Shown here piece by piece: positions 1,308 to 28,792 of a stretch of DNA of 29,730 nucleotides; position 1 is the stretch's first letter; every line of letters starts with the position of its first letter. The stretch comes from a virus. The translations under genes were made by a program, and so were the position numbers. The notes under the pieces were generated by a model, which was not told the origin of the DNA, ran no database searches, and worked only from the letters and a program-made list of their open reading frames with translations. Where the stretch lies: the IMG/VR virus record IMGVR_UViG_3300009169_000067, positions 1 to 29,730 of that record. One strand, written 5' to 3'.

Positions 1308-1341
1308 CAAATGTAATCTAATTTTTACACAGTATGACAAA
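1308..1341 (-). promoter_or_regulatory. Bacteroidota-type promoter P1
   Basis: On the minus strand, TTTG (1338-1341) is followed after 22 bases by TACATTTG (1308-1315), matching the Bacteroidota -33 TTTG and -7 TAnnTTTG consensus. The ATG at 1281 follows 26 bases downstream. The same TACATTTG recurs in three other promoters of this window. Confidence 0.8.
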
Positions 1342-1350: not shown

Positions 1351-1367
1351 TTTAGAACGATTCTAAA
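1351..1367. promoter_or_regulatory. Palindromic operator copy 1
   Basis: TTTAGAACGATTCTAAA: 7-bp arms TTTAGAA/TTCTAAA around a 3-bp centre. It lies 9 bases upstream of the -33 element of promoter P1 and overlaps the stop codon of the large terminase gene. It is one of four copies of TTTAGA-N5-TCTAAA, all upstream of minus-strand promoters. Confidence 0.75.
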
Positions 1368-6155: not shown

Positions 6156-6163
6156 TTTTTTTC

Positions 6164-6215
6164 AAAAAAAAGAGCCGCAGGGTTTCGTGGTTGCAGCACT
6201 ACTCCCCATACGGCT
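6164..6215 (-). terminator. Terminator-like hairpin in the initiator leader (possible attenuator)
   Basis: On the minus strand, AGCCGTA (6209-6215) can pair with TGCGGCT (6173-6179), extended by GGG/CCC after a bulged base. Eight T residues (6164-6171) follow after one C. This has the form of an intrinsic terminator but lies only 8 bases before the ATG at 6155, within the leader of the initiator gene and downstream of its own promoter. It may end transcripts from the HNH gene or act as an attenuator for replication genes. Confidence 0.55.
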
Positions 6216-6259
6216 TAAAATGTTTTGCTTATGCTATCCACTCTGCAACCGTGGATATG

Positions 6260-6288
6260 CAAATGTAGTTAATCTGGTTTATTTTCAA
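6260..6288 (-). promoter_or_regulatory. Promoter of the initiator gene
   Basis: Minus-strand TTG (6286-6288), 18 bases, then TACATTTG (6260-6267). The -7 box is identical to three of the four palindrome-linked promoters, but no palindrome lies upstream. It overlaps the 3' end of the HNH gene and would give the initiator a roughly 100-base leader containing the hairpin. Confidence 0.55.
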
Positions 6289-6844: not shown

Positions 6845-7150
6845 TTAAAAAGGCAATGAATCTAAGTCCGAGTTATCAACACGTGGCGTGTTACTTTGTG
6901 GATCGCTCTGCCAAACAATCTTACCGTTGCCGAGGTACACAGTAGCCTCTCCCCGGTCTCGTTCATCTTTGGTTTGATTCACCTTAATAGACGCATGGTT
7001 TCCGTACTGATCGGCCTCGTCGTTTATGGTGATCGAAATGTTCAAGTACTTCGCCCCGTTCTTGAAAGGCTTGCCGTTCTTGTCGACGGTCTGTACTTTT
7101 GACTTGTCGATCTTTGTTAGGTCGATCGACGCTGAAATAATTTTTGCCAT
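6845..7150 (-). CDS. Short phage single-stranded DNA-binding protein
   Basis: The 101-aa product starts MAKIISASIDLTKIDKSKV and is beta-rich (AKYLNISITINDEADQYGNHASIKVNQT). It ends in an acidic, Phe-terminated tail NSDLDSLPF that closely resembles the tip of bacterial SSB proteins (DDDIPF), which recruits partner enzymes. Position between RecT/DnaA-like genes and the initiator fits a role in coating ssDNA at the phage fork. The size is that of small OB-fold phage SSBs. The family assignment is based on the tail, size and context rather than a full alignment. Its start overlaps the preceding stop as TAATG. Confidence 0.75.
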   Translation of the reverse strand: MAKIISASIDLTKIDKSKVQTVDKNGKPFKNGAKYLNISITINDEADQYGNHASIKVNQTKDERDRGEATVYLGNGKIVWQSDPQSNTPRVDNSDLDSLPF

Positions 7151-7332
7151 TACTCAATGATTTTAAAGGTTTCTGTGAATTGTTTTTTCATGATCCGGAT
7201 TTTCTTTCCGTTCGGAACGTCGAGGTTCTGGAACACCACCGTGTGCTTTGTTGTTTCGATGGTCTTAAGTTTCATCGGGGTGTTGCGCCCTACGTGCAGG
7301 GCGATAAATGTTTGGTCAATTTTGTGTTTCAT
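7150..7332 (-). CDS. Small hypothetical protein, 60 aa
   Basis: Start taken at the ATG at 7332 (MKHKIDQTFIALHVGRNTPM), which overlaps the end of the DnaA-like gene by 17 bases; a longer frame to 7377 would overlap more and has no supporting site. The product is basic and beta-rich, with VVFQNLDVPNGKKIRIMKKQFTE near the end. Its stop overlaps the SSB start as TAATG. No recognised family; a nucleic-acid-associated role is suggested only by charge and neighbours. Confidence 0.65.
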   Translation of the reverse strand: MKHKIDQTFIALHVGRNTPMKLKTIETTKHTVVFQNLDVPNGKKIRIMKKQFTETFKIIE

Positions 7333-7795
7333 CTTTTGTGTTAAAAAGTTTTTCAAATCCTTGAATACCCTTGGCAATCAGTCGGCCCTTTAACCCGCCC
7401 ATCGCCGTTCTGAATTCCCTGTCTGTGTCGTGCATATTGCATACTACCTTACGCGCGTGGTGAACCGTTGCGTGGTCTTTGCCGTAATACTTTGCCGTTT
7501 GCATCATAGTGTAGTTGGTGCAAAAGTAGGTCGCTATCATTGCTATTTGCCTTGGTAGCGTTACGTAATGCTTGCGCGTTTTATCCATAATCTTTAGCTT
7601 TGATATGCCAAAGGTTAGGCAAATCTCTTCGATAATAATATCGCGCTTTTTGTGGTCGCTCATGTAGTTCGCGCCCATGTCGGTTATCAACTGCTCCACC
7701 TCTGTTGGCTCAAAGTTAATTCTACTTAGTTCATCTAAAAACGGCGCGTGGAACCTCGGCGGCACAAAGGATAGGAGGGTTTTTATAGTACTCAT
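7316..7795 (-). CDS. DnaA domain IV-like DNA-binding protein
   Basis: The start is the ATG at 7795, which overlaps the regulator stop as ATGA. The 159-aa product contains, at residues about 62-120, a pattern matching DnaA domain IV: FGISKLKIMDKTRKHYVTLP, RQIAMIATY, then YYGKDHATVHHARKVV. This matches the DnaA region that reads DnaA boxes (classical R-Q-I-A-M and G-x-D-H-T-T-V-x-H-A). The AAA+ ATPase domain of DnaA is absent, so it can bind DNA but not form the ATP-dependent helix. Similar stand-alone domains occur in phages and could mark an origin or compete with host DnaA. The target site is unknown. Confidence 0.85.
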   Translation of the reverse strand: MSTIKTLLSFVPPRFHAPFLDELSRINFEPTEVEQLITDMGANYMSDHKKRDIIIEEICLTFGISKLKIMDKTRKHYVTLPRQIAMIATYFCTNYTMMQTAKYYGKDHATVHHARKVVCNMHDTDREFRTAMGGLKGRLIAKGIQGFEKLFNTKDETQN

Positions 7796-8055
7796 TCTTC
7801 GCCCTCCCATTGTGCGGAACTACCTTGGAGGCATAGTTCCGCTAGGTTAACAATGTCGCCGCCGTTGTCTTTAGTGAGGTCGTAAACCTTTTTCATGGAA
7901 CCGACACTCATTGTGCTGGGTTGTGCGATCCATTGATGAGCGGTAGGTCTGCTGATTCCCATCTGCTTTGCGAATTCGCTTTTCGTTCCGAAGTGGTACT
8001 TCACGAACTCGTCAAAGGACTTGAACTCAGGGTTGTTGTGTTTCTTCTTTTTCAT
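7792..8055 (-). CDS. Small helix-turn-helix regulator
   Basis: The start is the ATG at 8055 (MKKKKHNNPEFKSFDEFVKY); an upstream TTG is in frame but less likely. The 87-aa product has a Cro/CI-type helix-turn-helix at residues about 25-46: TKSEFAKQMGISRPTAHQWI, where AKQMGIS is the first helix and turn and RPTAHQWI the recognition helix. The C-terminal part (MKKVYDLTKDNGGDIVNLAE) is short and probably dimerises. It is the only compact repressor-like protein in the window and so the best candidate to read the TTTAGA-N5-TCTAAA palindromes; this link is inference. It overlaps recT by 29 bases and the DnaA-like gene by ATGA. Confidence 0.8.
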   Translation of the reverse strand: MKKKKHNNPEFKSFDEFVKYHFGTKSEFAKQMGISRPTAHQWIAQPSTMSVGSMKKVYDLTKDNGGDIVNLAELCLQGSSAQWEGEE

Positions 8056-8968
8056 TGTCAAATAAGGGTTGAATTTCTGAATCTATTTTTTGCTTAATGT
8101 CCGTCATGTTATACGGAAGCCCAGCGGCGATCTTGTCGAGTTGGTTTTCTCGTAAAAACTCGATCATGTCTTGTGCCTCTTGCGCTGTCATATCCGACAA
8201 GTTTCGCTCAATGTTACCTCGCTCTTCGTGGTCAACGTTTGATGTTTGCAACAAACTTTCGATGTAGCTAATTTGACCGATCGTTGCAGGGTAATCTTGC
8301 TCATCGAGTTTGATTGCTTCAGACACCAACTCGTGGTTTGTTCCTTTGGGTAGGTACTTGTAAATTCTGCGGATAACGGTTTTGCGCGCCATCTCCGAAA
8401 AGTCAGTAACCCAAGGGCCTGTGTTTTTCTTTCCGCTATCGCTGCGCATTTTAATACCGTCAATCTCTTCGCGGGTCATAACTTCGATCTGAGGCGTACC
8501 GTCTTCGAGAAAGGCAACGGCGTAAACGTGTGTTACCTCTTTGGTTTTGTTTTTCGGCTTATGCTCTAACTTATCTTCAAGGCCAAGAGAGTACTCAAAT
8601 TCGTCGCCCTCGTACACAACCCTTGCGTTGATACGCTTAACAGACTTACCCTCTAAAATAAGCTGCACCAAACCTTGATACGACGGCACAAGAACCGCCT
8701 CCACTTGTCCCTTGATAGATTTTGGAACCAAGTAAGCCAATTTCTGCACGGGGTTAAGTGAAAGGTTTACCATTGCAAGGTTGAATATTGCCTTGGCTAC
8801 ACTCGCTGGCGTGGCATTGCTTAGGTATTCGTTGCTGTTAGCCGCTTGAATAGCGAACGAAACTTCTTGCTTAAACCGATCTTCGCCGATAAAGCGAATG
8901 ATGTCGGCTTTCTTTGCTTCGAGAAGATGAAAGATAGGCTTCTCTGTGATCTTAACTAGTGCATTCAT
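8027..8968 (-). CDS. recT: RecT-family single-strand annealing protein
   Basis: The 313-aa product shows the RecT signature: TPASVAKAIFNLAMVNLSLN followed by PVQKLAYLVPK (residues about 53-85), a central VLVPSYQGLVQLIL, and PWVTDFSEMARKTVIRRIYK before YLP (about 185-207). RecT anneals complementary ssDNA during recombination and replication. The catalytic fold ends near residue 225. A further helical C-terminal domain (about 229-290, including IGQISYIESLL and MIEFLREN) is longer than in the shortest RecTs and may bind SSB or be regulatory. No RecE-type exonuclease is adjacent in this window. Third gene of the long leftward operon. Confidence 0.93.
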   Translation of the reverse strand: MNALVKITEKPIFHLLEAKKADIIRFIGEDRFKQEVSFAIQAANSNEYLSNATPASVAKAIFNLAMVNLSLNPVQKLAYLVPKSIKGQVEAVLVPSYQGLVQLILEGKSVKRINARVVYEGDEFEYSLGLEDKLEHKPKNKTKEVTHVYAVAFLEDGTPQIEVMTREEIDGIKMRSDSGKKNTGPWVTDFSEMARKTVIRRIYKYLPKGTNHELVSEAIKLDEQDYPATIGQISYIESLLQTSNVDHEERGNIERNLSDMTAQEAQDMIEFLRENQLDKIAAGLPYNMTDIKQKIDSEIQPLFDNEKEETQQP

Positions 8969-8982
8969 TGTGTTATTGTGAT

Positions 8983-9222
8983 TTAATTGTTTACTGCCCA
9001 GTCGGGGTTGTTTGTGCCTACCGTAAAAGACAACCGCACCTTACCCTCATTGATTAACTTTGCGCTCACCCTGTACTCTGAATGCTTAGCTGCGCTTACT
9101 GAATTGTAGTGCGCCCATGTGTGAAGCATGTAGTAGTCGGTGGCCTTGCGCTCCCGTGTCATGTGTGGGACGAAGGATTGTTTTTCCATGTCCCATTTTT
9201 CGATGTGTACTTCGGTTGTCAT
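8983..9222 (-). CDS. Hypothetical protein, 79 aa
   Basis: The product begins MTTEVHIEKWDMEKQSFVPH and contains ERKATDYYMLHTWAHYNSVSA, then a beta-rich end (YRVSAKLINEGKVRLSFTVG). No motif recognised. The start at 9222 is fixed by AAGGAGGT 5 bases upstream and by ATGA overlap with the gene before it. It is an early gene lying just before recT. Confidence 0.75.
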   Translation of the reverse strand: MTTEVHIEKWDMEKQSFVPHMTRERKATDYYMLHTWAHYNSVSAAKHSEYRVSAKLINEGKVRLSFTVGTNNPDWAVNN

Positions 9223-9611
9223 TGCTCACCTCCTTTATAGCATAACGGTTCAATACCCCAAAGTTGTTCATACCAATTTTCGGGCAAGCCATGTTTAAGA
9301 AGCCATTCAATGCGTAGTGCCGCGCCTTCGGAGGTGTTGTCTACCCTTGCCCATCTCTCGGAAAAACACCAAGCCCAACTAGCGCCGTACAATAGGGTAA
9401 ATTGATCGCTCCATTCATTAAAATTTATTGCCTTACTCCGATATATTGGAAGGGGGTTTGTATCTAATATGGTGCAATGTCCAACAATGCAGCCGACCGA
9501 ATCGCATTCGGGCGTTTCGTGTTGACCAAATCGATAAAATTTCATACTAAAACGATCTTGCGGGATTGTCCGAATATAATCGGCCATTTTTTGTAGATTC
9601 TCTCTGTTCAT
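9219..9611 (-). CDS. Conserved-type phage hypothetical protein, 130 aa
   Basis: First gene of the long leftward operon, 25 bases downstream of promoter P2. The product has MADYIRTIPQDRFSMKFYRF near the start, a Cys/His segment ECDSVGCIVGHCTIL (about 34-48), and then WCFSERWARVDNTSEGAALR followed by IEWLLKHGLPENW. This pattern of a CGTxxCxxGH-like loop followed by WxFS and AAxRIxxLL is familiar from uncharacterised proteins of many phages. The cysteines and histidine could bind a metal. Function unknown. Confidence 0.8.
   Translation of the reverse strand: MNRENLQKMADYIRTIPQDRFSMKFYRFGQHETPECDSVGCIVGHCTILDTNPLPIYRSKAINFNEWSDQFTLLYGASWAWCFSERWARVDNTSEGAALRIEWLLKHGLPENWYEQLWGIEPLCYKGGEQ
9228..9235 (-). 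promoter_or_regulatory. Strong Shine-Dalgarno AAGGAGGT
   Basis: Located 5 bases before the ATG at 9222. The context AAGGAGGTGAGCA then ATG differs by one base from the site at 1030-1037, showing that these early genes share a designed translation start. Confidence 0.8.
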
Positions 9612-9636
9612 TTTTTTATGTTTATATTTGTGTTGG

Positions 9637-9668
9637 CAAATGTAAGTACTTTTTTACATAGTGTCAAA
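9637..9668 (-). promoter_or_regulatory. Bacteroidota-type promoter P2 (main leftward promoter)
   Basis: Minus-strand TTTG (9665-9668), exactly 20 bases, then TACATTTG (9637-9644), ahead of the ATG at 9611. It is the closest match to the Bacteroidota consensus in the window and drives the 8-kb replication and terL operon. Confidence 0.85.
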
Positions 9669-9680
9669 TAAATTTACAAA

Positions 9681-9697
9681 TTTAGATTGAATCTAAA
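9681..9697. promoter_or_regulatory. Palindromic operator copy 2
   Basis: TTTAGATTGAATCTAAA is a perfect 8+1+8 palindrome lying 12 bases upstream of the -33 element of P2. The proposed TTG start codon of the sigma-like gene (9687) is inside it, so a bound protein could affect both the leftward and the rightward operon. Confidence 0.8.
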
Positions 9698-10163
9698 TAA
9701 CGAAATAGAGAAACGATACAAGCAATGGCGCGTGTTTTCACGTGGATTGCATCGAAGTGGCGACGAGTTACTGCATACGGTTCTCGAAAGTGTGTTGCGC
9801 AAACGCGAAAGACTAGCCGAGTTAACCCCCGAGCAACTGCACGTGTATGTGTGCAGGGCTTTGTACCTTACGGCGATTAGCCCAAGGTCGGCGATCAATT
9901 ACAAGAAGGCAGTGAGCATCGACATAGATAACTGCAAAGAATGCAAAGCGATAACCGACGAGGTGTACATGGAGTACCGGGTTATCAACGAGCAGTTCGA
10001 TGTGCTTATAGGTCGGCTACCAGAGTACGACGCGATTATCTTTCGGCAGTATATCCAAGAAGGATTCAGCTTCGATGAACTAAGCACCGCCACAGGAATA
10101 AACAAACGAACGTTATACGAATCGGTGAAAAAAAGCAAACAAACACTAAAGCAATATGTTTAA
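9687..10163 (+). CDS. Sigma-70-like factor (putative late-gene activator)
   Basis: The product of about 158 aa has an N-terminal helical part resembling sigma region 2 (RSGDELLHTVLESVLRKRER, then YVCRALYLTAISPRSAINYK) and a C-terminal region-4-like helix-turn-helix (GFSFDELSTATGINKRTLYE, then SVKKSKQTLK). It heads the rightward tail operon, so it is a reasonable candidate to direct RNA polymerase to late promoters. The start is uncertain: no ATG is available near the 5' end, the in-frame TTG at 9687 is inside the palindrome, and a stop codon lies at 9669. ATT at 9672 is the only upstream alternative. Confidence 0.7.
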   Translation: MNLNNEIEKRYKQWRVFSRGLHRSGDELLHTVLESVLRKRERLAELTPEQLHVYVCRALYLTAISPRSAINYKKAVSIDIDNCKECKAITDEVYMEYRVINEQFDVLIGRLPEYDAIIFRQYIQEGFSFDELSTATGINKRTLYESVKKSKQTLKQYV

Positions 10164-11672: not shown

Positions 11673-11824
11673 CGTCGTTCGGTTGGCTGCACACCTTGGA
11701 GCAGTTAGCGAATTACGATGTGGTAAGAATCGAGGAGTTAACTAAGATAAACCACTACACTCTACTCACGCACATGGTGTACATGCAGCGAAAGAATTTT
11801 GAACAGCAAAAAAAGAAACGATGA
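11550..11824 (+). other. Probable programmed -1 frameshift and extension (GT-like product)
   Basis: The zero frame reads C-TTT-TTT-TTT as CTT TTT TTT TCG (T run 11551-11559), an ideal slippery site for -1 slippage. After slipping, the new frame stays open for about 87 codons to a TGA at 11822-11824 that overlaps the next start as ATGA. It encodes an acidic linker (VDEGEEGTGEDAGATDGGG) followed by a compact helical domain (SFGWLHTLEQLANYDVVRIE, then ELTKINHYTLLTHMVYMQRK). No start codon serves this frame on its own except two late ATGs. The fused product would be about 258 aa. Confidence 0.75.
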
Positions 11825-13215
11825 CTAACGTATCATACAAAGTAATAATTGAAAGGTTCCGTGCATTTGCCGACGCGCACTTGCAGATCAAGGCATTCAG
11901 CCACGGGCAACCAACACAGGCCGACCTACCCAAAGAACCCGTGTACCCTTTGATGCACGTATTTTGGACAAATAGCGGGTACCCTTCTAAGATGAAGACT
12001 TGGACTTTCGCTATCTTGTTTGCCGACTTGCCGAGGGATCGTACCGAAAAAACAGAATACCAAAAGGAAAGCGCAAGTGCGATGCAGAGGATAGCCGAGG
12101 ACTTGATCGCCGAGATTCAAAACGGGCGCACCATATTTGGCGGCGATGTTGCCTTTGAAGGTGATCCGACTATTACCCCACTATTCGAGGAAGGAACGAA
12201 CACTTTAACGGGGGTAACTCTCGATATTACTTTGTCGTTCGATTGGAACTGGAGCGCGTGTGATATACCCGCCGACTTCACTATTGGCGTTACTTCACCC
12301 GATAGCACCGATCCGAATACCTCTTTAGTGTTTGCTGAATCGTTGAACAAAGAAGGTGTTACCATAACCCTTGATAACGACCAAGAGGCACCGGGCAATT
12401 CAAAGTACTACGGCACCAATGCAAGTGGCGTGAAAGGTTGGCACGCGATAACAAGTGGCGGCGGCGGGAGCGTTTGGTTTGATGGTTCGGGAGTGCCGAG
12501 TGAATCACTAGGTAACAATGGTGACTACTACCTACGAACGTTGAACGGCGATGTATTCAACAAGGCCGCAAACGTTTGGACAGTTGTAGGCAACATTAAA
12601 GGGCCGCAAGGTGAGCAGGGTACGCAGGGCATACAAGGCATCCAAGGCATACAGGGAATTCAAGGTGAGAAGGGTGATAAGGGCGACAAAGGAGATAAAG
12701 GCGATACCGGTGATACAGGGCCGACGGGCGCAACTGGAGCGACAGGGGCAAACGGCCAAGGCGTACCAACGGGTGGAACGACGGGGCAAGTGTTACGCAA
12801 AGTAGATGCAACCGACTTTAACACGCAATGGGCAACGCCTACCTTTTTTGCTAACTCTTCGCCGGGCGGAACACTCGCCGCAGGGTTCACCCGTTTTTTA
12901 GTCGTGCAAGGATCAAATGCTATCGCAACTTCCGAGGGTACGCCACAACAAGTGGTGCCTCGTGCGTTAACAACGGTTAGCGCAACCGCCTACCTAGTGA
13001 TACTTACAGCAACGGTTGGTGCATCGACCTTCACTTTACGCCGTAACGGAGTAGATACGGGGTTAGTAGTAACCATACCGAGCGGATCAACGACTGGTGT
13101 TTATACTGCGACGGGAGCCATATCATACAGCGCAACCGACTTATGGAGTTGGCGGTTAGTTGGCGCAACAACAAATGCAATTCAAATCAATAACATATCG
13201 ATTGAATATCAGTAA
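11821..13215 (+). CDS. Tail-completion-like domain fused to collagen-like fibre
   Basis: Residues 1-150 (MTNVSYKVIIERFRAFADAH ... TLDITLSFDWNWSACDIP) resemble a small stand-alone protein of many Bacteroidota phage tail modules, probably a tail terminator/completion protein. Here it is followed by a linker with a GSVWFDGSGVPSESLGNNGD-type fibre repeat (about 217-258), a collagen-like Gly-X-Y region (about 261-316; GIQG and GDKG repeats) and a C-terminal beta-rich domain (about 317-464). Collagen-like stretches trimerise in phage fibres, and the C-terminal domain may bind the host. The fusion puts an adhesin on a tail joining protein. An alternative is that residues 1-150 are only an anchor domain of similar fold. 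Confidence 0.8.
   Translation: MTNVSYKVIIERFRAFADAHLQIKAFSHGQPTQADLPKEPVYPLMHVFWTNSGYPSKMKTWTFAILFADLPRDRTEKTEYQKESASAMQRIAEDLIAEIQNGRTIFGGDVAFEGDPTITPLFEEGTNTLTGVTLDITLSFDWNWSACDIPADFTIGVTSPDSTDPNTSLVFAESLNKEGVTITLDNDQEAPGNSKYYGTNASGVKGWHAITSGGGGSVWFDGSGVPSESLGNNGDYYLRTLNGDVFNKAANVWTVVGNIKGPQGEQGTQGIQGIQGIQGIQGEKGDKGDKGDKGDTGDTGPTGATGATGANGQGVPTGGTTGQVLRKVDATDFNTQWATPTFFANSSPGGTLAAGFTRFLVVQGSNAIATSEGTPQQVVPRALTTVSATAYLVILTATVGASTFTLRRNGVDTGLVVTIPSGSTTGVYTATGAISYSATDLWSWRLVGATTNAIQINNISIEYQ
12601..12768 (+). repeat. Collagen-like coding repeats
   Basis: In-frame 9-bp Gly-X-Y repeats: GGCATACAAGGCATCCAAGG-type units followed by GGCGACAAAGG-type units. They encode GIQGIQG..., then GDKGDKG... 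and GATGATG.... Such repeats expand and contract easily, giving fibre length variation. Confidence 0.85.
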
Positions 13216-13217
13216 CC

Positions 13218-14204
13218 ATGAAAACAATTTTACTTTCAGCACTTATTTTCTGCACGTTCTGTTTGAGCGCGCAAGATTCTTTATTCACTTGGAATCGAGA
13301 GGTAGCCATAGTCAGCGGTGTAATTCGTCGCGCTTCTACGGGTTGGCAATTCGTTACGCCCGACCATGATGCGCTTGGCTTTTCGGGAACGATAACGGCC
13401 ACTAGCAATCAACTCACTTTGGATATGGATTTCGACGGTATGGGGCTTAACCCTTCGCAATGGACGCCTAGTGGTTTTGTTTGTGGTGCAGATGAAACCT
13501 ACGCGATGGAAGGCCATACTTTTGGCGCCTCAGTTAGTTCAACGTCGATAGTAATTCGTGGATCGAACAATATAGCTAGCGGTCAACAGATCGCCTTTAA
13601 CGGTACTTCGTGGGTGGGCGCAAGTGGTTACACCGCGACTTGGAATAGTTCGCTTCAATGCTTGCAGTTAGCCCGAAATTTAACAGATAACAGTAATTGG
13701 AAACAAGGCATTCAAGCTGGCGGTGTTATGGGTATATCGCTTGAAACAAACGTAACTAGCTTATCGCAGTTGTACTACCATGCGGTTCTTGTGTCGAATA
13801 GCAACACGCAGATAAGAATAGCGTTCTACTACAACGGCCAGAGGGTAGCAACGCCTGACGTGAATATGAAGTTCTTTCTAACCGACTTTGCACGGAGGCC
13901 GCAATCATTCGACTTTACATCGAACGTAACTACCCTGCAACCTAACTCCAACATTTGGATCGTCGGCACCTTCGTGAAGATCAACCAAAGCGCTATGCCT
14001 ACAAGTGAAGATCAATCGTTCTACGCCTATCCAAATCCAAGCACCGACAAGTTTAGTCTATCCACGGGCAGTAATTCGCCAATCAAAGTTTACTCGATGG
14101 ATGGAGCGGTTATCTATTCGGGATTCATTGAGAACTGCGAATTAAAACAAGGGGTGTATGTGGTGGAACAAGACAGCCAACGAACCAAAGTGGTGATACA
14201 ATGA
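13218..14204 (+). CDS. Secreted protein with type IX secretion-like sorting domain
   Basis: The 328-aa product starts with a clear Sec signal peptide (MKTILLSALIFCTFCLSAQD, cleavage probably after SAQ or SA). It ends with a domain of about 60 residues matching the type A C-terminal sorting signal of T9SS cargo: FYAYPNPSTDKFSL, then IKVYSMDGAVIYSG and LKQGVYVVEQ with a final TKVVIQ. The middle (20-265) is beta-rich, with FNGTSWVGASGYTATWN and NIWIVGTFVKI like segments, resembling fibre or lectin-like modules. In a T9SS-bearing host it would cross the outer membrane and be released or anchored to the surface. It lies inside the tail operon, 2 bases after the fibre gene and overlapping the gp10-like gene by ATGA. 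Confidence 0.85.
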   Translation: MKTILLSALIFCTFCLSAQDSLFTWNREVAIVSGVIRRASTGWQFVTPDHDALGFSGTITATSNQLTLDMDFDGMGLNPSQWTPSGFVCGADETYAMEGHTFGASVSSTSIVIRGSNNIASGQQIAFNGTSWVGASGYTATWNSSLQCLQLARNLTDNSNWKQGIQAGGVMGISLETNVTSLSQLYYHAVLVSNSNTQIRIAFYYNGQRVATPDVNMKFFLTDFARRPQSFDFTSNVTTLQPNSNIWIVGTFVKINQSAMPTSEDQSFYAYPNPSTDKFSLSTGSNSPIKVYSMDGAVIYSGFIENCELKQGVYVVEQDSQRTKVVIQ

Positions 14205-14713
14205 ACGACAACACGGCCATAGTTGATGCGCTTGTAAACTTCGGAAACGATGTGGTTGAACGCGCGCAGAGAAACCTTGGTGCAACACGCATGGTGAAGG
14301 GTAAGAAGCGCAGAGCAGTTGCAACGAGTTTGCTTAAAAATTCGTTGACGTTCTCACTCAGGCGCAACAAATACAACTACATCATTAAATTTATCTCTAA
14401 AGGACAGGCGGTCGAGTATGCTGACGTTGTAGAGGAAGGACGCAAGCCTAACAGCAAGCAACCGCCTGTTGAGCCGATACTCAAATGGATCAACGATAAG
14501 AAGATTAAAGTGCGCGACGAAAAGGGCAAGATCGTGAAGCAGACCGAAAGCAGAAAAAAGGGGTTAGCTTTTTCCATTGCTCGAGGTATAGGCAAGAACG
14601 GCATACCCGCCGTGAAGTATTACGAGAACGCATACAACGACGCGCTCCCAGAGCATGAGGAAAAAATAGTAAACGCACTGCAAGCGTACATTGAAAGTAA
14701 ATTGAAACAATGA
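14201..14713 (+). CDS. HK97 gp10-like head-tail connector/tail completion protein
   Basis: The 170-aa basic product contains VEYADVVEEGRKPNSKQPPV followed by EPILKWINDKKIKV (residues about 74-105) and GLAFSIARGIGKNGIPAVKY then YENAYNDAL. The 'YA..vE.Gr.pg..PP...I..Wi..K' pattern is that of HK97-gp10-type proteins, which join or complete the tail at the neck. The order beside a tail-completion-like domain fits. Four-base overlaps on both sides. Moderately sure of the family, less of the exact position in the virion. Confidence 0.75.
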   Translation: MNDNTAIVDALVNFGNDVVERAQRNLGATRMVKGKKRRAVATSLLKNSLTFSLRRNKYNYIIKFISKGQAVEYADVVEEGRKPNSKQPPVEPILKWINDKKIKVRDEKGKIVKQTESRKKGLAFSIARGIGKNGIPAVKYYENAYNDALPEHEEKIVNALQAYIESKLKQ

Positions 14714-15981
14714 TAACAATCGAACAACAACCGTACGGCGTTACGCCCGTCGGTCAGCCTTTAATATTTGTGGCATCGTCCGACAACGTGGGCAACACGG
14801 GATTTCGGTATAAGGTGACGTTAATTAGGCCGTTTACCAATGAAGAGATTTCATTTTACTTACCACCTAACCCTGCCGATAAACTCGTATTCGATGCCAA
14901 CGCAATTGTCACCAAGTGGTGTGTTAACGCGGTTGATCTTTCGGGCTTACCGATTGTGTTTGCGGATGGCGCGGTCGAGGAGGTAGATGCAAGTGGGCTT
15001 ATTCGATTTAAATTTAACTTGATGGAGGCGTGGGTTATTGACGGCGTGTTAACCGAAGATCCCGAAAGTGAGGAGGTAGTTGATGTAGGTGTATGGCCCG
15101 CACGCTACCAAATTAGCGACGGTTATCGTCCTAACCCTGCAACTCGTTACGGCTTGACAGGGCAAACAAAGTACCTTCTTTCGAGCCGATACGCTGACAC
15201 GCATCTGCCCGACTTGTTTCCCCGTATTGCTGGCAGCGGCAATATTATTTACATTCCCGTGCGCGAAAGTGATTTCGGTGTGATAAGCTTCTGCACGATT
15301 CAAGCTTCAGGAATTGCAGCACTCAAAGGACGCGTTACCCTTGTACCCGATAGCGGATCGCCTGTTACTTACACGGCAGACTTACCCGATTTCGGACACT
15401 TCGGATGCTACCCTGCTAATCTTAACGCCTCCACTATTAGCGGAATGCCTAAACCATCCGCTTACCCTAACTGGAGGTATATCGGGTTCCAAGTTCTTAA
15501 CGCGTCGAACGCTATTGTATCTGCATCGTATGTGTTGTATAACGCGGCGATATACGGCGGCACCGACTGCAAGTACCCCAACGTGCGCCTTGCATGGGTG
15601 AACGAGCATGGCGGTTGGGACTTTTTCAACTTCACCCGAAAGAATGAAGAGAACTTGGAAGTGGAGCGCAGAAGATACCGCAAGGTGGTAGGCACTTATG
15701 CAGCCGAAACTTTCGGGTTTAACTCATTCGATCGTGGGCTAACCGAACGCGCACCGATCGTCAAGCAATACCTCAACATCGAAAGCGGTTGGTTACAGGA
15801 AGGTGAATTTACCCTGCTGAAATCGCTGCTCTATTCAAAGCAAGTGTTCATCGTAAACGATAATGCGACGATAACGCCCGTGCTTATCGAGGACAACAGT
15901 TATCTAGTGCGACGCGCAAGGGATAAGAAGCAGTACAACCAAGCCATGAAACTTCAATACGCACACACTATTAACGTATGA
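14710..15981 (+). CDS. Distal tail/baseplate-type structural protein
   Basis: The 423-aa product starts MITIEQQPYGVTPVGQPLIF and is beta-rich throughout. It contains PNVRLAWVNEHGGWDFFNFT followed by RKNEENLEVERRRYRKV (residues about 293-330), a segment I associate with uncharacterised tail proteins of Bacteroidota phages located between the tape measure and the fibre genes. The C-terminal part (about 355-423) has TLLKSLLYSKQVFIVNDNAT, similar to distal tail proteins where a receptor-binding or hub attachment domain follows. Overlaps both neighbours by ATGA. The function is by position and size; no enzymatic motif. Confidence 0.7.
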   Translation: MITIEQQPYGVTPVGQPLIFVASSDNVGNTGFRYKVTLIRPFTNEEISFYLPPNPADKLVFDANAIVTKWCVNAVDLSGLPIVFADGAVEEVDASGLIRFKFNLMEAWVIDGVLTEDPESEEVVDVGVWPARYQISDGYRPNPATRYGLTGQTKYLLSSRYADTHLPDLFPRIAGSGNIIYIPVRESDFGVISFCTIQASGIAALKGRVTLVPDSGSPVTYTADLPDFGHFGCYPANLNASTISGMPKPSAYPNWRYIGFQVLNASNAIVSASYVLYNAAIYGGTDCKYPNVRLAWVNEHGGWDFFNFTRKNEENLEVERRRYRKVVGTYAAETFGFNSFDRGLTERAPIVKQYLNIESGWLQEGEFTLLKSLLYSKQVFIVNDNATITPVLIEDNSYLVRRARDKKQYNQAMKLQYAHTINV

Positions 15982-18973: not shown

Positions 18974-19189
18974 TTACAATGATTCTAGTAGTTCTTCGCG
19001 TGTGGCGTGGATTTTATCTTCGGCGACGATTATGTATTTGCTGTCGATGCTAAACCAATAGTTTATTTTCATTTCATTAGCAGCCCACTCGGTATGAATC
19101 CTCCAAACCTCTGCGCACTGCGCTTTCATAGTGTCGGGGTGGATAAAGTAGATCAATTGCCCGATGTTAAATTTTGTGTTGATTGTCAT
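18974..19189 (-). CDS. Hypothetical protein, 71 aa
   Basis: The product starts MTINTKFNIGQLIYFIHPDT and is a small soluble beta-rich protein with IHTEWAANEMKINYWFSIDS and ends ATREELLESL. The overall pattern (G-Q-x-I-Y-F, then a Y-x-V/I strand) suggests a small SH3-like barrel, but no family is recognised. It follows a 59-aa gene after 25 bases and ends at the bidirectional terminator. Confidence 0.75.
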   Translation of the reverse strand: MTINTKFNIGQLIYFIHPDTMKAQCAEVWRIHTEWAANEMKINYWFSIDSKYIIVAEDKIHATREELLESL

Positions 19190-19214
19190 AACGTTTGTGT
19201 TTTATTGGGTTGGG

Positions 19215-19394
19215 TTATCTTACTTGGTTAAAAAACTCCATTTCAAGGCGCGCCGCATTAGTGTAAACACCATTTTCGGTGATGGCAGAAATGTTTGATT
19301 CGCTGCAAAAATTGATAAATTTCTGCAACCATGAGAATTGTACTTTCTTGGTTGAACCGTTCTCGAATGCGATGGTGATAATTGGGTTGTTCAT
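19215..19394 (-). CDS. Small hypothetical protein, 59 aa
   Basis: The ATG at 19394 opens a 59-codon frame, MNNPIITIAFENGSTKKVQF then SWLQKFINFCSESN and ending EMEFFNQVR. It lies 37 bases downstream of promoter P3 and in step with the next gene. A longer frame in another register (to 19461) would run through the promoter and is rejected. Function unknown; it is the first product of a palindrome-controlled promoter. Confidence 0.75.
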   Translation of the reverse strand: MNNPIITIAFENGSTKKVQFSWLQKFINFCSESNISAITENGVYTNAARLEMEFFNQVR

Positions 19395-19431: not shown

Positions 19432-19461
19432 CAAATGTAAAGCGAATTTTACAACTTGCAA
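19432..19461 (-). promoter_or_regulatory. Bacteroidota-type promoter P3
   Basis: Minus-strand TTG (19459-19461), 19 bases, then TACATTTG (19432-19439), leading to the ATG at 19394. The -7 box is identical to P1 and P2. Confidence 0.75.
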
Positions 19462-19485: not shown

Positions 19486-19502
19486 TTTAGAAACCGTCTA
19501 AA
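19486..19502. promoter_or_regulatory. Palindromic operator copy 3
   Basis: TTTAGAAACCGTCTAAA, with arms TTTAGA/TCTAAA around 5 bases. It lies 24 bases upstream of the P3 -33 element, about one helical turn further than in copies 1 and 2, and directly beside the terminator of the protease operon. Confidence 0.7.
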
Positions 19503-19591: not shown

Positions 19592-20179
19592 TTATTTTGA
19601 AAGAAGCAACTCCAGTTCTGTTAAAATTTGGGATTCGGTAATTGACAGCGATAACTGCTCTTGCGTTTCGGTGAATAGACCTTCAATAGAAAAGCCTTTC
19701 AAGTCCCCTGCCTTAACCGCTTCCAACACATCTTCGTTCTCAATGTACACACCTGCCATCGCGGTTCCAATAGGCAGATCAAAACCAAGATGAACGCTCT
19801 TATCGCTCTCACCTTCCTTCACCCACAACTCGACAATGCTTAAGCCCGCAACAGCAAACGAATGCTGCACCGTGTGGCTATGCTGCAAGTTCTTTCTAAG
19901 GATCGCGTGTGTGGCTTGCATAACGCACTCTCTTGTAAAGGTAATGTAGTACTCTTCCTTTGTGTTTGGATCGATGCGCAATATGTGCATATCGGGAATA
20001 AGGATAGGGCCATACACCATGCGACGTTCTTTGTTCACCTCTGCAAGCTTTACCTTCTTTTGGCTGCTCAAATAAACGAAGTCCACCATGATTGCGGGTT
20101 CATCCACTAAGCTGACCGCTTGAATACCCATGTGATCGTCTTGCACATGGTACTTGATTACTTTCTTTTTCTTGTTCAT
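19592..20179 (-). CDS. XkdF-like prohead protease
   Basis: The 195-aa product matches the XkdF/prohead serine protease pattern: an N-terminal GIQAVSLVDEPAIMVDFVYL, then YGPILIPDMHILRIDPNTKE, EYYITFTRECVMQATHAIL, HSHTVQHSFAVAGLSIVELW, and near the end PIGTAMAGVYIENEDVLEAV followed by GFSIEGLF (about residues 162-169). Such enzymes cut scaffold and capsid protein during head maturation. Histidine and serine residues in HTVQHS and GFSIEG are candidates for catalysis. It is unusual that the gene follows the tape measure gene on the minus strand rather than preceding the scaffold and capsid genes, which are on the plus strand at 26626-28151. Start overlaps the tape-measure stop (TAATG). Confidence 0.85.
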   Translation of the reverse strand: MNKKKKVIKYHVQDDHMGIQAVSLVDEPAIMVDFVYLSSQKKVKLAEVNKERRMVYGPILIPDMHILRIDPNTKEEYYITFTRECVMQATHAILRKNLQHSHTVQHSFAVAGLSIVELWVKEGESDKSVHLGFDLPIGTAMAGVYIENEDVLEAVKAGDLKGFSIEGLFTETQEQLSLSITESQILTELELLLSK

Positions 20180-23409: not shown

Positions 23410-23444
23410 AATAGCCCTGCTGAGAAGTAGGGCTATTTGTTTTC
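23410..23444 (+). terminator. Terminator of the secreted-protein gene
   Basis: AATAGCCCT (23410-23418) pairs with AGGGCTATT (23429-23437), followed by TGTTTTC. The stop codon of the convergent RusA gene is inside the stem. Confidence 0.85.
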
Positions 23445-23759
23445 CGTTATCGAGTAACACCAATGCTCTTTACCCTTGGGCACAATTACTTTGTCAACCA
23501 CCAACCGCGACACCCGCTTGTCGTTGAACCCGTGTTTCTTCTGCAGAATATCCATGCACATCTTTACCGAGTTGTCAATGTCTTGCGCATCGTTTGAGAA
23601 CGCAAACACGAAGTACACGCATAGCTGGCCGCCCGGTATCTTCAAGGGCTTCAATGCCATCAAGCAATGGTACTCGAATGCTTTGTACGCATTGCTTTTA
23701 AACCGCCTACCTTTCCATGCGGTGTTGACCGAGATAGGTTTTACTTCTATTTTTTGCAT
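23433..23759 (-). CDS. rusA: RusA-family Holliday junction resolvase
   Basis: The 108-aa product has the RusA pattern: SVNTAWKGRRFKSNAY at residues about 10-25, then DIDNSVKMCMDILQKKHGFN (D60, D62, N63, K66, D70) and DKRVSRLVVDK with D80. The acidic residues and lysine match the catalytic 'DxDNxxKxxxD' core, which cuts four-way DNA junctions. In phages the enzyme resolves branched replication intermediates before packaging. It is separated from the upstream operon by a terminator (23770-23798) and overlaps the terminator of the opposing gene at its 3' end. Confidence 0.9.
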   Translation of the reverse strand: MQKIEVKPISVNTAWKGRRFKSNAYKAFEYHCLMALKPLKIPGGQLCVYFVFAFSNDAQDIDNSVKMCMDILQKKHGFNDKRVSRLVVDKVIVPKGKEHWCYSITENK

Positions 23760-23769
23760 CGTGCAATTT

Positions 23770-23798
23770 AAAACAAAAACACCCCCGTGATGGAGGTG
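23770..23798 (-). terminator. Terminator between small-gene operon and rusA
   Basis: Minus strand CACCTCC (from 23798) pairs with GGGGGTG (one G-T) around ATCAC, followed by TTTTTGTTTT. It lies 25 bases after the stop of the 54-aa gene at 23823, so rusA is expressed by read-through or from its own promoter. Confidence 0.75.
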
Positions 23799-23822
23799 CT
23801 TTGTAGGTGTTTTAGGTTGGCG

Positions 23823-23987
23823 TTAATCGTTCTCAAATACCACAGTGGTTCGCTTTTGTTCTAAGTGCGTTGCCGCTCGTTTGCGACTGAAGTTGCTTAA
23901 AAAAATGATTCCAATTACAAACATTGCAATAAATATAAATACGGTTAATAGCATGCCGTGTTTTTCAATGAAGCTTGTGTTTTTCAT
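23823..23987 (-). CDS. Small single-pass membrane protein, 54 aa
   Basis: The frame from the ATG at 23987 encodes MKNTSFIEKHGMLLTVFIFI, then AMFVIGIIFLSN and a basic tail (FSRKRAATHLEQKRTTVVFE). One membrane helix spans residues about 12-32 with a charged C-terminal tail in the cytoplasm. It could be a holin-like or accessory membrane protein; nothing more specific can be said. Last of the chain of tiny genes, followed by a terminator. Confidence 0.7.
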   Translation of the reverse strand: MKNTSFIEKHGMLLTVFIFIAMFVIGIIFLSNFSRKRAATHLEQKRTTVVFEND

Positions 23988-24062
23988 TTTCTCTTAGTTG
24001 TTTCCCCTCCATTGAACGGTGGAGGTTGCCGTGGGGTGGTTAGCGAGAAGTTAGCTGCAAGG

Positions 24063-24236
24063 CTACAATTCGCTTCCACATTTGTCGCATTTAGAAGCCC
24101 CGTATCTTGCCATTGTATCGTGGTCGTTTGGACAACTATTCCAACTATAACCAAATATTTTTCTATACAATTTATACAACAAAACAATGGCAATTACACA
24201 TATGGTTAATGCTCCAATTATTTCAAGTATGCTCAT
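24063..24236 (-). CDS. Small membrane protein with zinc-ribbon-like tail, 57 aa
   Basis: ATG at 24236 to TAG at 24063. The product is MSILEIIGALTICVIAIVLL, YKLYRKIFGY and then SCPNDHDTMARYGASKCDKC with the end GSEL. An N-terminal membrane helix (2-21) is followed by a metal-site pattern C..H and CDKC, like a half zinc ribbon. Its start overlaps the previous stop as ATGA, supporting the choice over a competing frame in 23984-24193 that would need a TTG start. Function unknown. Confidence 0.7.
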   Translation of the reverse strand: MSILEIIGALTICVIAIVLLYKLYRKIFGYSWNSCPNDHDTMARYGASKCDKCGSEL

Positions 24237-24325
24237 TTCGGTTTCAAATTAAAATTAGTGCTGATAATCCGCCCAGCACATAACAGCTGTTTGCCAAAAT
24301 GCGCGGTTTTGTTTTTCTCACTCAT
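24233..24325 (-). CDS. Tiny protein, 30 aa
   Basis: Start at the ATG at 24325 (MSEKNKTAHFGKQLLCAGRI then ISTNFNLKPK), chosen because AAAGGAGGGGAGA directly precedes it. A longer frame to 24427 lacks such a site. Overlaps the previous gene by 8 bases and the next by ATGA. A protein this short may act by binding a partner or serve mainly to couple translation; conservation must decide. Confidence 0.55.
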   Translation of the reverse strand: MSEKNKTAHFGKQLLCAGRIISTNFNLKPK

Positions 24326-24470
24326 TCTCCCCTCCTTTGGTTTTGGTTGCTGAATCGGTGTTGTATTTGTAATCGTTCCAACAACTGCATCGTGGGAACA
24401 TTGCTCGTTGAAAGTGGTGGCATTCAACCTTGCACTCTTTTCGGTGGTCGTAAATTCTCGATCTAAACAT
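24318..24470 (-). CDS. Small Cys/His-rich protein, 50 aa
   Basis: ATG at 24470 to TGA at 24318. MFRSRIYDHRKECKVECHHF is followed by RAMFPRCSCWNDYKYN. The pattern C13, C17, H18/H19, C28 and C30 suggests a small zinc-binding fold. A strong Shine-Dalgarno (AAGGAGG) precedes the start, which overlaps the stop of the 163-aa gene by 8 bases. No family is recognised. Confidence 0.6.
   Translation of the reverse strand: MFRSRIYDHRKECKVECHHFQRAMFPRCSCWNDYKYNTDSATKTKGGENE
24329..24338 (-). promoter_or_regulatory. Strong Shine-Dalgarno AAAGGAGGGG
   Basis: Located 3 bases before the ATG at 24325. It fixes the short start of the 30-aa gene and lies inside the preceding 50-aa gene. Confidence 0.65.
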
Positions 24471-24954
24471 TCTCCCCTCCTTCATTCTGATAAGCCATAG
24501 GAAACCATTCTCTTAACTGTTCGGGGGTGGCGGTGATGGTGTTCTCAATTGTGTGATTGTAAAGGCTTTCAAAGTCGCCTAAGTCTTCATTTTTTCCCCA
24601 ATGTACGCAATGACCCAATGAAGAATGTAAATCTTGCCCGCCACTCAACCAAGATTCAGAAAACTCACAACTCCGCTTATGCGCCTCAATAGCTAGTGGT
24701 GCAATCTCTTTTGGTAGATATTGGTTGAATATCTCAACTACCTTTGGATTAAACGGGCGGGTGTCTTCTACCTTTTCGTTGGTGTCAACGTTATGGTCTA
24801 CCACTTCGTATAGTCGAGAAGTGAGTGTGTTAGTTACATCAATCGCTCCATTAAAGCCATAATTGCCATCCCTAATTATAGAACCTTGAATAATCGCACA
24901 CAAGAACGCATCCCGCTTGTCGTTCCATTCTTTTTGAGTTAGTTTGTGTTTCAT
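24463..24954 (-). CDS. Hypothetical protein, 163 aa
   Basis: The product starts MKHKLTQKEWNDKRDAFLCA and contains a Cys/His/Trp segment (LHSSLGHCVHWGKNEDLGDF, about 109-128). It ends TATPEQLREWFPMAYQNEGG, whose last part loosely recalls the LREWFEMFPEPY of the 86-aa protein at 1021-1281. Acidic, with no membrane segment. ATGA overlap with the gene upstream. Unknown function. Confidence 0.75.
   Translation of the reverse strand: MKHKLTQKEWNDKRDAFLCAIIQGSIIRDGNYGFNGAIDVTNTLTSRLYEVVDHNVDTNEKVEDTRPFNPKVVEIFNQYLPKEIAPLAIEAHKRSCEFSESWLSGGQDLHSSLGHCVHWGKNEDLGDFESLYNHTIENTITATPEQLREWFPMAYQNEGGENV
24476..24482 (-). promoter_or_regulatory. Strong Shine-Dalgarno AAGGAGG
   Basis: Located 5 bases before the ATG at 24470, within the end of the 163-aa gene. 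The junction sequence is repeated almost exactly at 24323-24338, suggesting duplication of a start region. Confidence 0.65.
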
Positions 24955-25157
24955 TGTTTATTTGTGTTTAGTGTTTGAAAATCTAGGTGTTCTGAAAACA
25001 TATTCGTTCCAAAGTTTGGCTCCGAATCAAAAATCAATTCGGTTTTGCCAGCTTTAACAAGAATCAAATTGTTGTCGGCTTGGGTGGCTTGATACACTTC
25101 GCCCTCCTTCAATACGTTGTTCCAACTTTTGATGCAAAGAACCGAAATTGTTTTCAT
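24951..25157 (-). CDS. Hypothetical protein, 68 aa
   Basis: The product starts MKTISVLCIKSWNNVLKEGE then VYQATQADNNLILVKAG, a small beta-barrel-like pattern (V-x-C-I-x-x-W then G-x-V-Y-x-A). It is the kind of SH3-like small phage protein often found in early operons. Overlaps the next gene by ATGA and follows the glycosyltransferase after 4 bases. Function unknown. Confidence 0.75.
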   Translation of the reverse strand: MKTISVLCIKSWNNVLKEGEVYQATQADNNLILVKAGKTELIFDSEPNFGTNMFSEHLDFQTLNTNKQ

Positions 25158-25161
25158 GTGT

Positions 25162-25989
25162 TTAGTGCTTCATCAAAGATAGTAAATATTCTTTCTCATC
25201 CTCATCCATAAACCAAGTCGCATCGCTGATTGTAGCGTCCGACAAATACTTTTCGAGGATCGAGTACGGCCAAATGTTAACGCTGCTCTTTACATCTGTT
25301 ACGTGAACGCGCTGGTAGTCCTTATCGATCAGATGAGGTATGTACCCGCTAGCAATTAAGCGGTAGTCAGCGCGCCAATCCATGCCTCGCTTCAAATTCG
25401 GCGGCCACAATCCAATGTAGTCGGCGCTTGTGATCTTCACAACGCCCAACCGCTCAAACATTTTAGCCACACTAAACGGTAGATGCAACTTGCTACCAAC
25501 CTTCCAACTCAAAAACGGATCGTCGTGATCGCGAATAACTTCCGCTCTTACATCGAAACACGTATCTTCAATCGCCTTGCGTGATAACACCCTGCCCGCT
25601 CCGATTACCTTTGGATAACTATGCTTGCGCGTGTAGTCGTGAAGACCAACGGAACCTGTGTGCGTGTCAACGAAATGGTTGCGCGAGAACCCCGCGTGAT
25701 CGTACTCACCCAGAACGGCATTACTCACGCTATCATCGTCGCCCATAATAACGAAGTGATCGTAGCCCTCGTTATACGCAAGGTGCAAGGCTTTATTAAA
25801 CTTAGCGGAAGGATCGTTTAACCCGTAAAAGCACAATTCATGCTCACGCGCATAATCTTGTACAACCGCCGCGTCCGAATCACAGTGCACGCCCGCGAAC
25901 ACCCGAAGGTTCAAACGGTTGGCGCAGTTAATCATTACCCGGCTAATCGCAGGACGCTCGTTGAGAGCAGTAACTATGCAGTGGCTCAT
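25162..25989 (-). CDS. Second GT-A-like glycosyltransferase
   Basis: The 275-aa product starts MSHCIVTALNERPAISRVMI, a first-strand plus helix of a GT-A fold, and has DPSAKFNKALHLAYNEGYDH then FVIMGDDDSVSNAV (D84-D86) in the place of the DxD sugar-nucleotide/metal site. A conserved region further on has IRDHDDPFLSWKVG (about 153-166). The same order of motifs is seen in the enzyme at 2660-3364. It may add a sugar to the virion, phage DNA or host glycan. ATGA overlap with the upstream membrane-protein gene, so the pair may act together at the membrane. Confidence 0.75.
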   Translation of the reverse strand: MSHCIVTALNERPAISRVMINCANRLNLRVFAGVHCDSDAAVVQDYAREHELCFYGLNDPSAKFNKALHLAYNEGYDHFVIMGDDDSVSNAVLGEYDHAGFSRNHFVDTHTGSVGLHDYTRKHSYPKVIGAGRVLSRKAIEDTCFDVRAEVIRDHDDPFLSWKVGSKLHLPFSVAKMFERLGVVKITSADYIGLWPPNLKRGMDWRADYRLIASGYIPHLIDKDYQRVHVTDVKSSVNIWPYSILEKYLSDATISDATWFMDEDEKEYLLSLMKH

Positions 25990-26261
25990 GGCATTAAAAG
26001 ATCAGCGGTGACAATAGCAAACGCACACATCAGTAGAGCGAAGCAAAAGCAAGCTACCTTCCAATCGTGCAATTCTTTTTTTTGTTTTGCGAGCTGCTCT
26101 TCGCGAACAGTTAACTGGTCTTTTAATTCAAGTGTCACACGATACCTCTCTACGCTAAGCCAAGAGGCGCGATCGGGCTTGTTGCCCATGTTAAATACAC
26201 GTGCGTAGAAACGCTTGCCGTCTACGTTGAACTCGTAGGTGTTCTTTGGTGGTTTTTTCAT
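25986..26261 (-). CDS. C-terminally anchored membrane protein, 91 aa
   Basis: The product begins MKKPPKNTYEFNVDGKRFYA, has a likely coiled coil (LELKDQLTVREEQLAKQKKE, about 44-63) and then one hydrophobic helix (VACFCFALLMCAFAIVTADL, about 69-88) close to the C-terminus. This is a tail-anchored topology with most of the protein in the cytoplasm. Candidates include a membrane tether for the adjacent glycosyltransferase or a spanin-like part, but no family is recognised. Confidence 0.7.
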   Translation of the reverse strand: MKKPPKNTYEFNVDGKRFYARVFNMGNKPDRASWLSVERYRVTLELKDQLTVREEQLAKQKKELHDWKVACFCFALLMCAFAIVTADLLMP

Positions 26262-26272
26262 GGTGTTTGTGT

Positions 26273-26512
26273 TTAGAATCTATTTTCTCGGTTATTCTCT
26301 TCGCTGTTAAGCACAATCGTTAACGGGTCGTCCCAATTCAGTGCGCGCCCCGATTCATGGTAAAACACTTTGATGTGGGGAAAGTGGACGAATGCACCTC
26401 CCTGCCAGCGATAGCGGTCTACTTTCTTTTTTACCCCGAACAGACGTTCGATAAAATCAGGGGTTTTGGTTACGACGTAAATCCCGTCGATGTACTCAAT
26501 AGTTCTTTGCAT
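26273..26512 (-). CDS. Hypothetical protein, 79 aa
   Basis: First gene of the 26512-leftward operon, 24 bases downstream of P4. The product starts MQRTIEYIDGIYVVTKTPDF and contains FIERLFGVKKKVDRYRWQGG then AFVHFPHIKVFYHESG. It is small, basic in the middle and acidic at the end, soluble, without a known motif. Unknown early function. Confidence 0.7.
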   Translation of the reverse strand: MQRTIEYIDGIYVVTKTPDFIERLFGVKKKVDRYRWQGGAFVHFPHIKVFYHESGRALNWDDPLTIVLNSEENNRENRF

Positions 26513-26536: not shown

Positions 26537-26567
26537 CAAACATACAAATAAAAGATACTCTGTCAAA
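26537..26567 (-). promoter_or_regulatory. Bacteroidota-type promoter P4
   Basis: Minus-strand TTTG (26564-26567), 19 bases, then TATGTTTG (26537-26544), which fits TAnnTTTG. It precedes the ATG at 26512. Confidence 0.8.
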
Positions 26568-26590: not shown

Positions 26591-26607
26591 TTTAGAATGA
26601 TTCTATT
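26591..26607. promoter_or_regulatory. Palindromic operator copy 4
   Basis: TTTAGAATGATTCTATT has a perfect inner AGAATGATTCT with one degenerate outer arm. It lies 23 bases upstream of the P4 -33 element and 18 bases before the plus-strand capsid operon start at 26626. Confidence 0.7.
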
Positions 26608-26625
26608 TTAGGAAAACTATTGCAA

Positions 26626-27225: not shown

Positions 27226-27245
27226 ACAAAACTTTCCAATAGAAA

Positions 27246-28151: not shown

Positions 28152-28164
28152 TCATTAACCTGAC

Positions 28165-28192
28165 AGCGGAGTAGTAGAAATACTGCTCCGCT
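28165..28192 (+). terminator. Hairpin after capsid gene (weak terminator/stabiliser)
   Basis: AGCGGAGTAGTA (28165-28176) pairs with TACTGCTCCGCT (28181-28192): 12 bp with one G-T and a GAAA loop. Only TTTCTAAA follows, so it is probably a partial terminator or a stabiliser of the capsid mRNA 3' end. Confidence 0.75.
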
Positions 28193-28213
28193 TTCTAAAT
28201 ACCACTTGAAAAA

Positions 28214-28771: not shown

Positions 28772-28792
28772 CCAAAACAAACAACCGAAAAG

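Follow-up and report, generated by a model that had tools for sequence, protein, structure and literature searches.

The window, that is, the whole stretch of DNA analyzed here, is a complete IMG/VR virus record (29,730 bases) from a Bacteroidota virus. It carries four palindromes of the type TTTAGA-N5-TCTAAA (P1 to P4), each located upstream of a minus-strand TAnnTTTG box (at 1315, 9644, 19439, and 26544), and the gene starts lie 25 to 38 bases past these four promoter boxes (Table 1). The P2 operon, which gives profile matches to RecT (1.7e-58) and Bac_DnaA_C (2.4e-13), is referred to below as the replication operon, and the small genes behind the other boxes are referred to as cassettes; of the small proteins encoded in the box-bearing operons, nine were compared with PADLOC-DB and gave no defence-system match. 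The initial annotation had described four palindromes at four TTG-N19-22-TAnnTTTG promoters ahead of leftward genes, with spacings in two groups that differ by about one helical turn. All four promoters were located, the reported palindrome-to-minus-33 gaps of 9, 12, 24, and 23 bases were reproduced, and the gaps measured to TAnnTTTG fall into the same two classes (35 for P1 and 36 for P2 versus 46 for both P3 and P4), a phasing that recurs in other viral contigs.

Table 1. Palindromic boxes, promoters, and associated genes in the 29,730-base window
Feature	Position	Strand	Description
P1 box	1351..1367	-	Minus-strand sequence TTTAGAATCGTTCTAAA; matches ATTTAGAATnATTCTAAAT at 16/18 as 19-mer 1350-1368
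P1 promoter	1308..1315	-	TACATTTG; TTG spacer 22
First P1 gene	1021..1281	-	86 aa; phrog_25460, unknown function
P2 box	9681..9697	-	Minus-strand sequence TTTAGATTCAATCTAAA; 16/18 as 19-mer; overlaps first codons of the divergent sigma-like frame (9687, +)
P2 promoter	9637..9644	-	TACATTTG; TTG spacer 20
P2 leftward genes	6845..9611	-	Small genes, RecT-like annealing protein, 87-aa HTH protein, DnaA-C-domain protein, 101-aa protein
Sigma-70 region-4-like gene	9687..10163	+	phrog_1740, 5.6e-7; divergent; start overlaps P2 box
P3 box	19486..19502	-	Minus-strand sequence TTTAGACGGTTTCTAAA; 15/18 as 19-mer
P3 promoter	19432..19439	-	TACATTTG; TTG spacer 19
P3 genes	18974..19394	-	Two small genes, 59 and 71 aa
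P4 box	26591..26607	-	Minus-strand sequence AATAGAATCATTCTAAA; two core mismatches; 16/18 as 19-mer
P4 promoter	26537..26544	-	TATGTTTG; TTG spacer 19
P4 leftward genes	23433..26512	-	Small unknown-function genes through RusA-like protein (23433-23759)

The exact motif was found only at 1351, 9681, and 19486 in the phage genome and in none of 100 dinucleotide shuffles, so that the four-palindrome claim stands as three exact copies plus a fourth, at 26591, with two mismatches to the core. Chance also fills the two-mismatch class (four matches in the window against a shuffle mean of 1.71, with 9 of 100 shuffles reaching four); the assignment of the 26591 copy therefore rests on where it lies (gap 46) and on being conserved in a relative. 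With three mismatches tolerated, the motif is no commoner in the window than in the shuffles, which would suit AT-rich palindromes arising by chance or RNA hairpins that no protein binds. The absence of exact copies from the shuffles speaks against this explanation, as does a mirror-image control that lacks promoter phasing among the matches listed (see below); moreover, a hairpin belonging to the gene upstream would show no phasing with the promoter that follows, and we consider this origin very improbable.

An intergenic TAnnTTTG with a well-spaced TTG ahead of a gene occurs five times in the window, four times with the palindrome and once, at 6267, without it. The box-free TACATTTG promoter at 6267 (minus strand) is followed by about 100 untranslated bases, the last of which form a G+C-rich stretch and a T run (6160-6270); the minus-strand transcript of 6160-6270 is a possible candidate small RNA, and no known RNA element in the window matched Rfam at gathering scores. 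The tape-measure-like gene (20179-22122) lies on the minus strand, and the neighboring long genes (11821-18947 and 26620-29339) lie on the plus strand. At P2, the plus strand carries TATATTTG at 9623, facing the sigma-like gene but without a TTG at the correct spacing; if it directed rightward transcription, the P2 box would fall in the start region of that transcript (9623-9697). Since the divergent sigma-like frame begins within the box, one bound protein could affect both directions, and we speculate that it could favor the leftward genes and hinder the rightward sigma-like gene.

The sites are retained in a close viral relative, G134 (33,792 bases; sigma-like protein 98% identical), in which a scan recovered four of four boxes at the gaps of the window and with unchanged box interiors. 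The genes behind them differ: G134 has another first gene behind P3, lacks the first P4 gene, and shows P1 and P2 genes that diverge past a conserved start. A distant relative, G143 (sigma-like protein 28% identical), also has a box over the sigma-like start and ahead of a divergent leftward promoter, at gap 45 compared with 36 for P2 of the window. No box was found at the sigma-like start of G156 (29% identical; best match, 12/18). The 4,438-base fragment G160 contains four boxes, all at gap 35 and each ahead of a small gene, and one of these precedes a relative of the first P1 gene.

In order to follow the layout beyond the window, IMG/VR was scanned for the palindrome 25 to 55 bases ahead of TAnnTTTG, yielding at least 119 stretches, and a mirror-image control scan yielded at least 120; removal of near-duplicates left 86 test sites and 105 control sites among the matches listed. 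The gaps 35, 36, and 46, which were taken from the window and whose counts were summed by hand, accommodate 29 of the 86 test sites (8.3 would be expected if the distribution were flat) and 7 of the 105 control sites among the matches listed. Across all test sites listed, the gaps peak at 35-36 and 45-47, one helical turn apart, and the sites fall outside ORFs of at least 100 aa in 63 of 86 cases versus 14 of 105 for the control. A set of five gaps, chosen after viewing the data, gave 44/86 versus 14/105 among the matches listed (Fisher p 1.6e-8). Some of the test sites resemble coding sequence, for example a related set (L039, L008, L009, L067, and L031) at gaps 29, 51, and 54.

Boxes matching at 15/18 or better were found in 24 records, with the near-copy G134 left out, at gaps 35-37 (22 boxes) and 45-47 (17 boxes) and never at 38-44 or 48-50; because these records were hand-picked, the peaks are biased, and the unbiased test is that on all 119 listed IMG/VR stretches. 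Three Markov simulations produced no box of 14/18 or better in the phased window. Twenty-eight whole records, picked from IMG/VR loci L004-L124 mostly for phased gaps or length, held 71 sites with at most one mismatch versus 14 control sites. The palindrome-promoter layout reaches beyond the window to many viral contigs. Cultured Bacteroidota phages showed no enrichment (19 sites with at most one mismatch versus 25 control sites in 16 of 19 phage records used), which rules out the box as a universal feature of these phages. Among cultured phages, the terminase of Flavobacterium phage 11b is the nearest (48% identity), and this phage lacks the box; phage 6H carries a single box at gap 58, one more turn away. 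Cellulophaga phage phi10:1, the only phased one among the 16 cultured phages, has boxes at gaps 35 and 47, which makes the idea testable in a laboratory phage-host pair.

Which protein would recognize these sites? The initial annotation had proposed a phage regulon governed by the 87-aa HTH protein (7792-8055) or the sigma-like protein (9687). Part of this proposal holds, in that an operator-like site is present at four leftward promoters and is kept in a relative; the proposed binders fare worse, as the HTH protein is present in 3 of the 25 site-bearing records and the sigma-like protein in 4, and both are rejected as the general binder; BLAST found no protein family common to all 25 phage records. 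A phage-encoded binder (one of these two proteins in this phage, or a different protein in each phage) draws some support from the position of both genes, which adjoin P2 with one overlapping the box, and distant HTH proteins of shared specificity would escape BLAST at E 1e-4. The site and its gaps, however, are the same in host chromosomes, and we regard a phage-encoded binder as improbable, keeping the two proteins as rivals for this phage. A host protein would be the simplest binder.

The sequence of the box points to the Fur family. The extended consensus of the phased viral sites among the matches listed is ATTTAGAATnATTCTAAAT, and these sites favor AATnATT in the middle (AT-S-AT in the five free positions), a preference that the query did not prompt; the P3 box of the window deviates from AATnATT at its center. 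In its 7-1-7 form, ATTTAGAATnATTCTAAAT resembles Fur and PerR boxes. In a study on Riemerella anatipestifer, a Fur box, ATTTAGAATTATTCTAAAT, was predicted from promoters whose genes respond to deletion of fur, and purified Fur bound four promoters in gel shifts (PMC5609570). This published box is identical to the consensus found here, and by hand comparison the window 19-mers (three at 16/18, one at 15/18) fit it as well as do some of the R. anatipestifer boxes listed there. No Fur-family protein was found in any of 29 phage records, ruling out a phage-encoded Fur, and all 16 bacterial host genomes tested contain one, with several paralogues in Bacteroidota genomes. A host Fur-family regulator would thus be the more likely binder than a phage protein, and Fur appears to be the best-supported candidate.

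The palindrome is not private to phages but also precedes iron-, heme-, and respiration-related genes in host chromosomes. A chromosome scan that required the box with AATnATT 30-50 bases ahead of TAnnTTTG returned at least 119 stretches, mostly from Bacteroidota contigs among the matches listed, and the 103 nonredundant host sites listed cluster at gaps 35-36 (18), 39-40 (18), and 45-47 (33). Pfam was run on 82 of the 95 downstream proteins, leaving out 13 short or implausible frames, and identified HemA (6), Fer4 (6), the TonB-receptor barrel (6), cytochrome c (5), NuoB (4), and NqrA (3) among the matches listed; single scans of listed proteins added CcmE, COX2 (two), a 2Fe-2S thioredoxin-like subunit, and RseC/MucC (two). 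Two genes are presumably CcmE-like and two SdhC-like; among these loci, L127 and L243 gave no Pfam match, L189 gave a single match that was weak and unrelated, and L128 was covered by the scan of the 82-protein batch. Gene names were assigned to gap classes by reading N-termini by eye together with the Pfam totals, which do not name members. On this basis, the listed iron-using and respiratory genes fall at gaps 35-36 or 45-48, HemA of L150 (gap 32) being the sole exception, and several listed receptor-like genes fall at gap 30 or 39-40.

Counts in defined sets of genomes and loci were also obtained. Seven named-species genomes hold 32 near-consensus sites versus 3 control sites, and those of Lutibacter adjoin hemA, a SufS-like gene, cytochrome c genes, and FeoB (names by reading). 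In 118 random Bacteroidota genomes the box-plus-promoter pattern is weakly enriched (13 matches versus 7 in the control). A box of 14/18 or better occurs in 6 of 30 hemA upstream regions, compared with about 0.04 per kb inside genes, and 8 of 30 FeoA loci of one Bacteroidota family have a box 4-7 bases from TAnnTTTG. A Fur site at the fur gene itself is a frequent, though not obligatory, sign of autoregulation; here, no box of 15/18 or better was found at 28 Bacteroidota Fur-family gene loci, flanks included, the acidobacterial L261 alone had one, and autoregulation was set aside as a proof of identity.

Several loci met in these scans stand apart. Six Flavobacteriales-type contigs (L126, L132, L175, L187, L216, and L220) combine a gap 39-40 box with a second inverted repeat, ATACC...GGTAT, before the promoter, and their downstream genes are DUF6607 or receptor-like. 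A small His-rich membrane-like protein follows a box at gap 35-36 in both IMG/VR (L015, L059, L082, and L104) and Bacteroidota contigs (L177, L223, and L239), and these loci are perhaps one mobile element. In three lactobacilli (L135, L146, and L197) the palindrome lies directly upstream of a gene, which in L135 and L197 resembles, by reading, a metal P-type ATPase.

The same site might instead be read by another host regulator: PerR, for example, or an unrelated protein that responds to redox state or heme. A perfect ATTTAGAATTATTCTAAAT lies directly upstream of an acidobacterial PerR-like gene accompanied by catalase (L137:5798-7924; the same gene in L261), respiratory and redox genes are represented among the listed host targets as strongly as iron genes, and the several Fur-family paralogues per Bacteroidota genome leave room for such a protein. 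On the other hand, the exact 19-base consensus is the one published, with gel shifts, for a Bacteroidota Fur (PMC5609570), and near-consensus sites adjoin FeoB and receptor-like genes; we therefore hold a different host regulator to be quite unlikely. Porphyromonas gingivalis Fur is reported to bind neither iron nor the E. coli Fur box (PMC6613475), a point against the Fur reading.

If Fur is the binder, it could act on these promoters in either sense. As a repressor, it would hold the phage genes down in iron-replete cells and release them upon iron starvation. In favor of this, repression is the usual mode of Fur, the R. anatipestifer boxes are found at genes whose expression goes up when fur is deleted (PMC5609570), and a gap of 30 or 39-40 separates box and promoter at several of the listed receptor-like host genes. 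The phage boxes are placed differently: the R. anatipestifer boxes lie within 100 bases of the start codons of Fur-lowered genes, whereas those of the phage stand upstream of the minus-33 element at two phased distances. The FeoA boxes, at gap 4-7, instead sit over the promoter, where a bound protein would block polymerase. Furthermore, the listed host genes with phage-like gaps are iron-using genes, and it would be costly to keep the replication operon shut whenever cells are replete with iron. Repression by Fur is in our view unlikely, though to be reckoned with. Expression of feoA and feoB of R. anatipestifer falls in the fur deletion (PMC5609570), so that Fur can act positively in this phylum, directly or not.

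Activation by host Fur is the reading that we favor on balance: the palindrome would be a host Fur-family box on the phage, with Fur helping to start the TTG-N19-22-TAnnTTTG promoters of the replication operon and the cassettes. TAnnTTTG spans -12 to -5 in Flavobacterium psychrophilum (PMC9723704); if the same holds here, the box centers would lie at about -56/-57 (P1 and P2) or about -67 (P3 and P4), on a single DNA face. Two upstream positions one turn apart fit an activator touching polymerase from one face. A host metal-bound regulator, most likely Fur, would bind the palindrome upstream of the minus-33 element and help host RNA polymerase to start, so that the boxes would serve both the replication operon, which runs leftward, and cassettes of small accessory genes; in the latter the genes are exchanged while box and promoter stay. 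From sequence comparison we infer that Fur probably binds the phage sites, that it probably activates rather than represses, and that infection probably responds to iron. Several results weigh against this reading: the lack of enrichment in cultured phages, the absence of a box in phage 11b and at the 28 Bacteroidota Fur-family loci, the weak enrichment in the 118 genomes, the low share of hemA upstream regions with a box, the deviating center of P3, and the behavior reported for P. gingivalis Fur.

Control of phage genes by host iron regulators is known in principle. The Shiga toxin 1 genes of coliphages are controlled by Fur and freed by iron starvation, and the corynephage tox gene is controlled by DtxR; these, too, are phage-borne genes under a host iron regulator. 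In both cases, however, a single cargo gene is repressed from an operator over its promoter, whereas the phage described here has several boxes, upstream and phased, with the replication operon included. Class I activators such as CRP likewise work from upstream sites one helical turn apart, but CRP belongs to a different protein family, the centers here would be at about -56/-57 and -67, and activation is in our case a reading of the layout. Phage morons are likewise small genes behind their own promoter; here such genes are exchanged between close relatives, and several cassettes share one operator with the replication operon. A search of the open-access literature turned up no description of Fur boxes at the promoters of Bacteroidota phages. 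What is new is that the boxes lie upstream and phased, that a replication operon is among the targets, and that the cassettes are exchangeable.

Taken together, the phased match to the Fur box suggests that gene expression in some Bacteroidota viruses is linked to the iron state of the host. The wider proposal, that widespread environmental Bacteroidota phages use host Fur as an activator through turn-phased boxes at a replication operon and exchangeable cassettes, is put forward tentatively, at somewhat less than an even chance. If it is true, iron would be a host-side signal to which early genes respond in the phages of a major phylum, and the strength of infection would track the iron state of the cell. 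The box would also provide an easy sequence mark for accessory-gene cassettes that have almost no annotation. For the hosts, it would suggest direct activation of iron-using genes by Fur from upstream sites in Bacteroidota; the phages would then have taken over an upstream layout of Fur activation in use in their hosts at heme, NADH dehydrogenase, Nqr, and ferredoxin genes.
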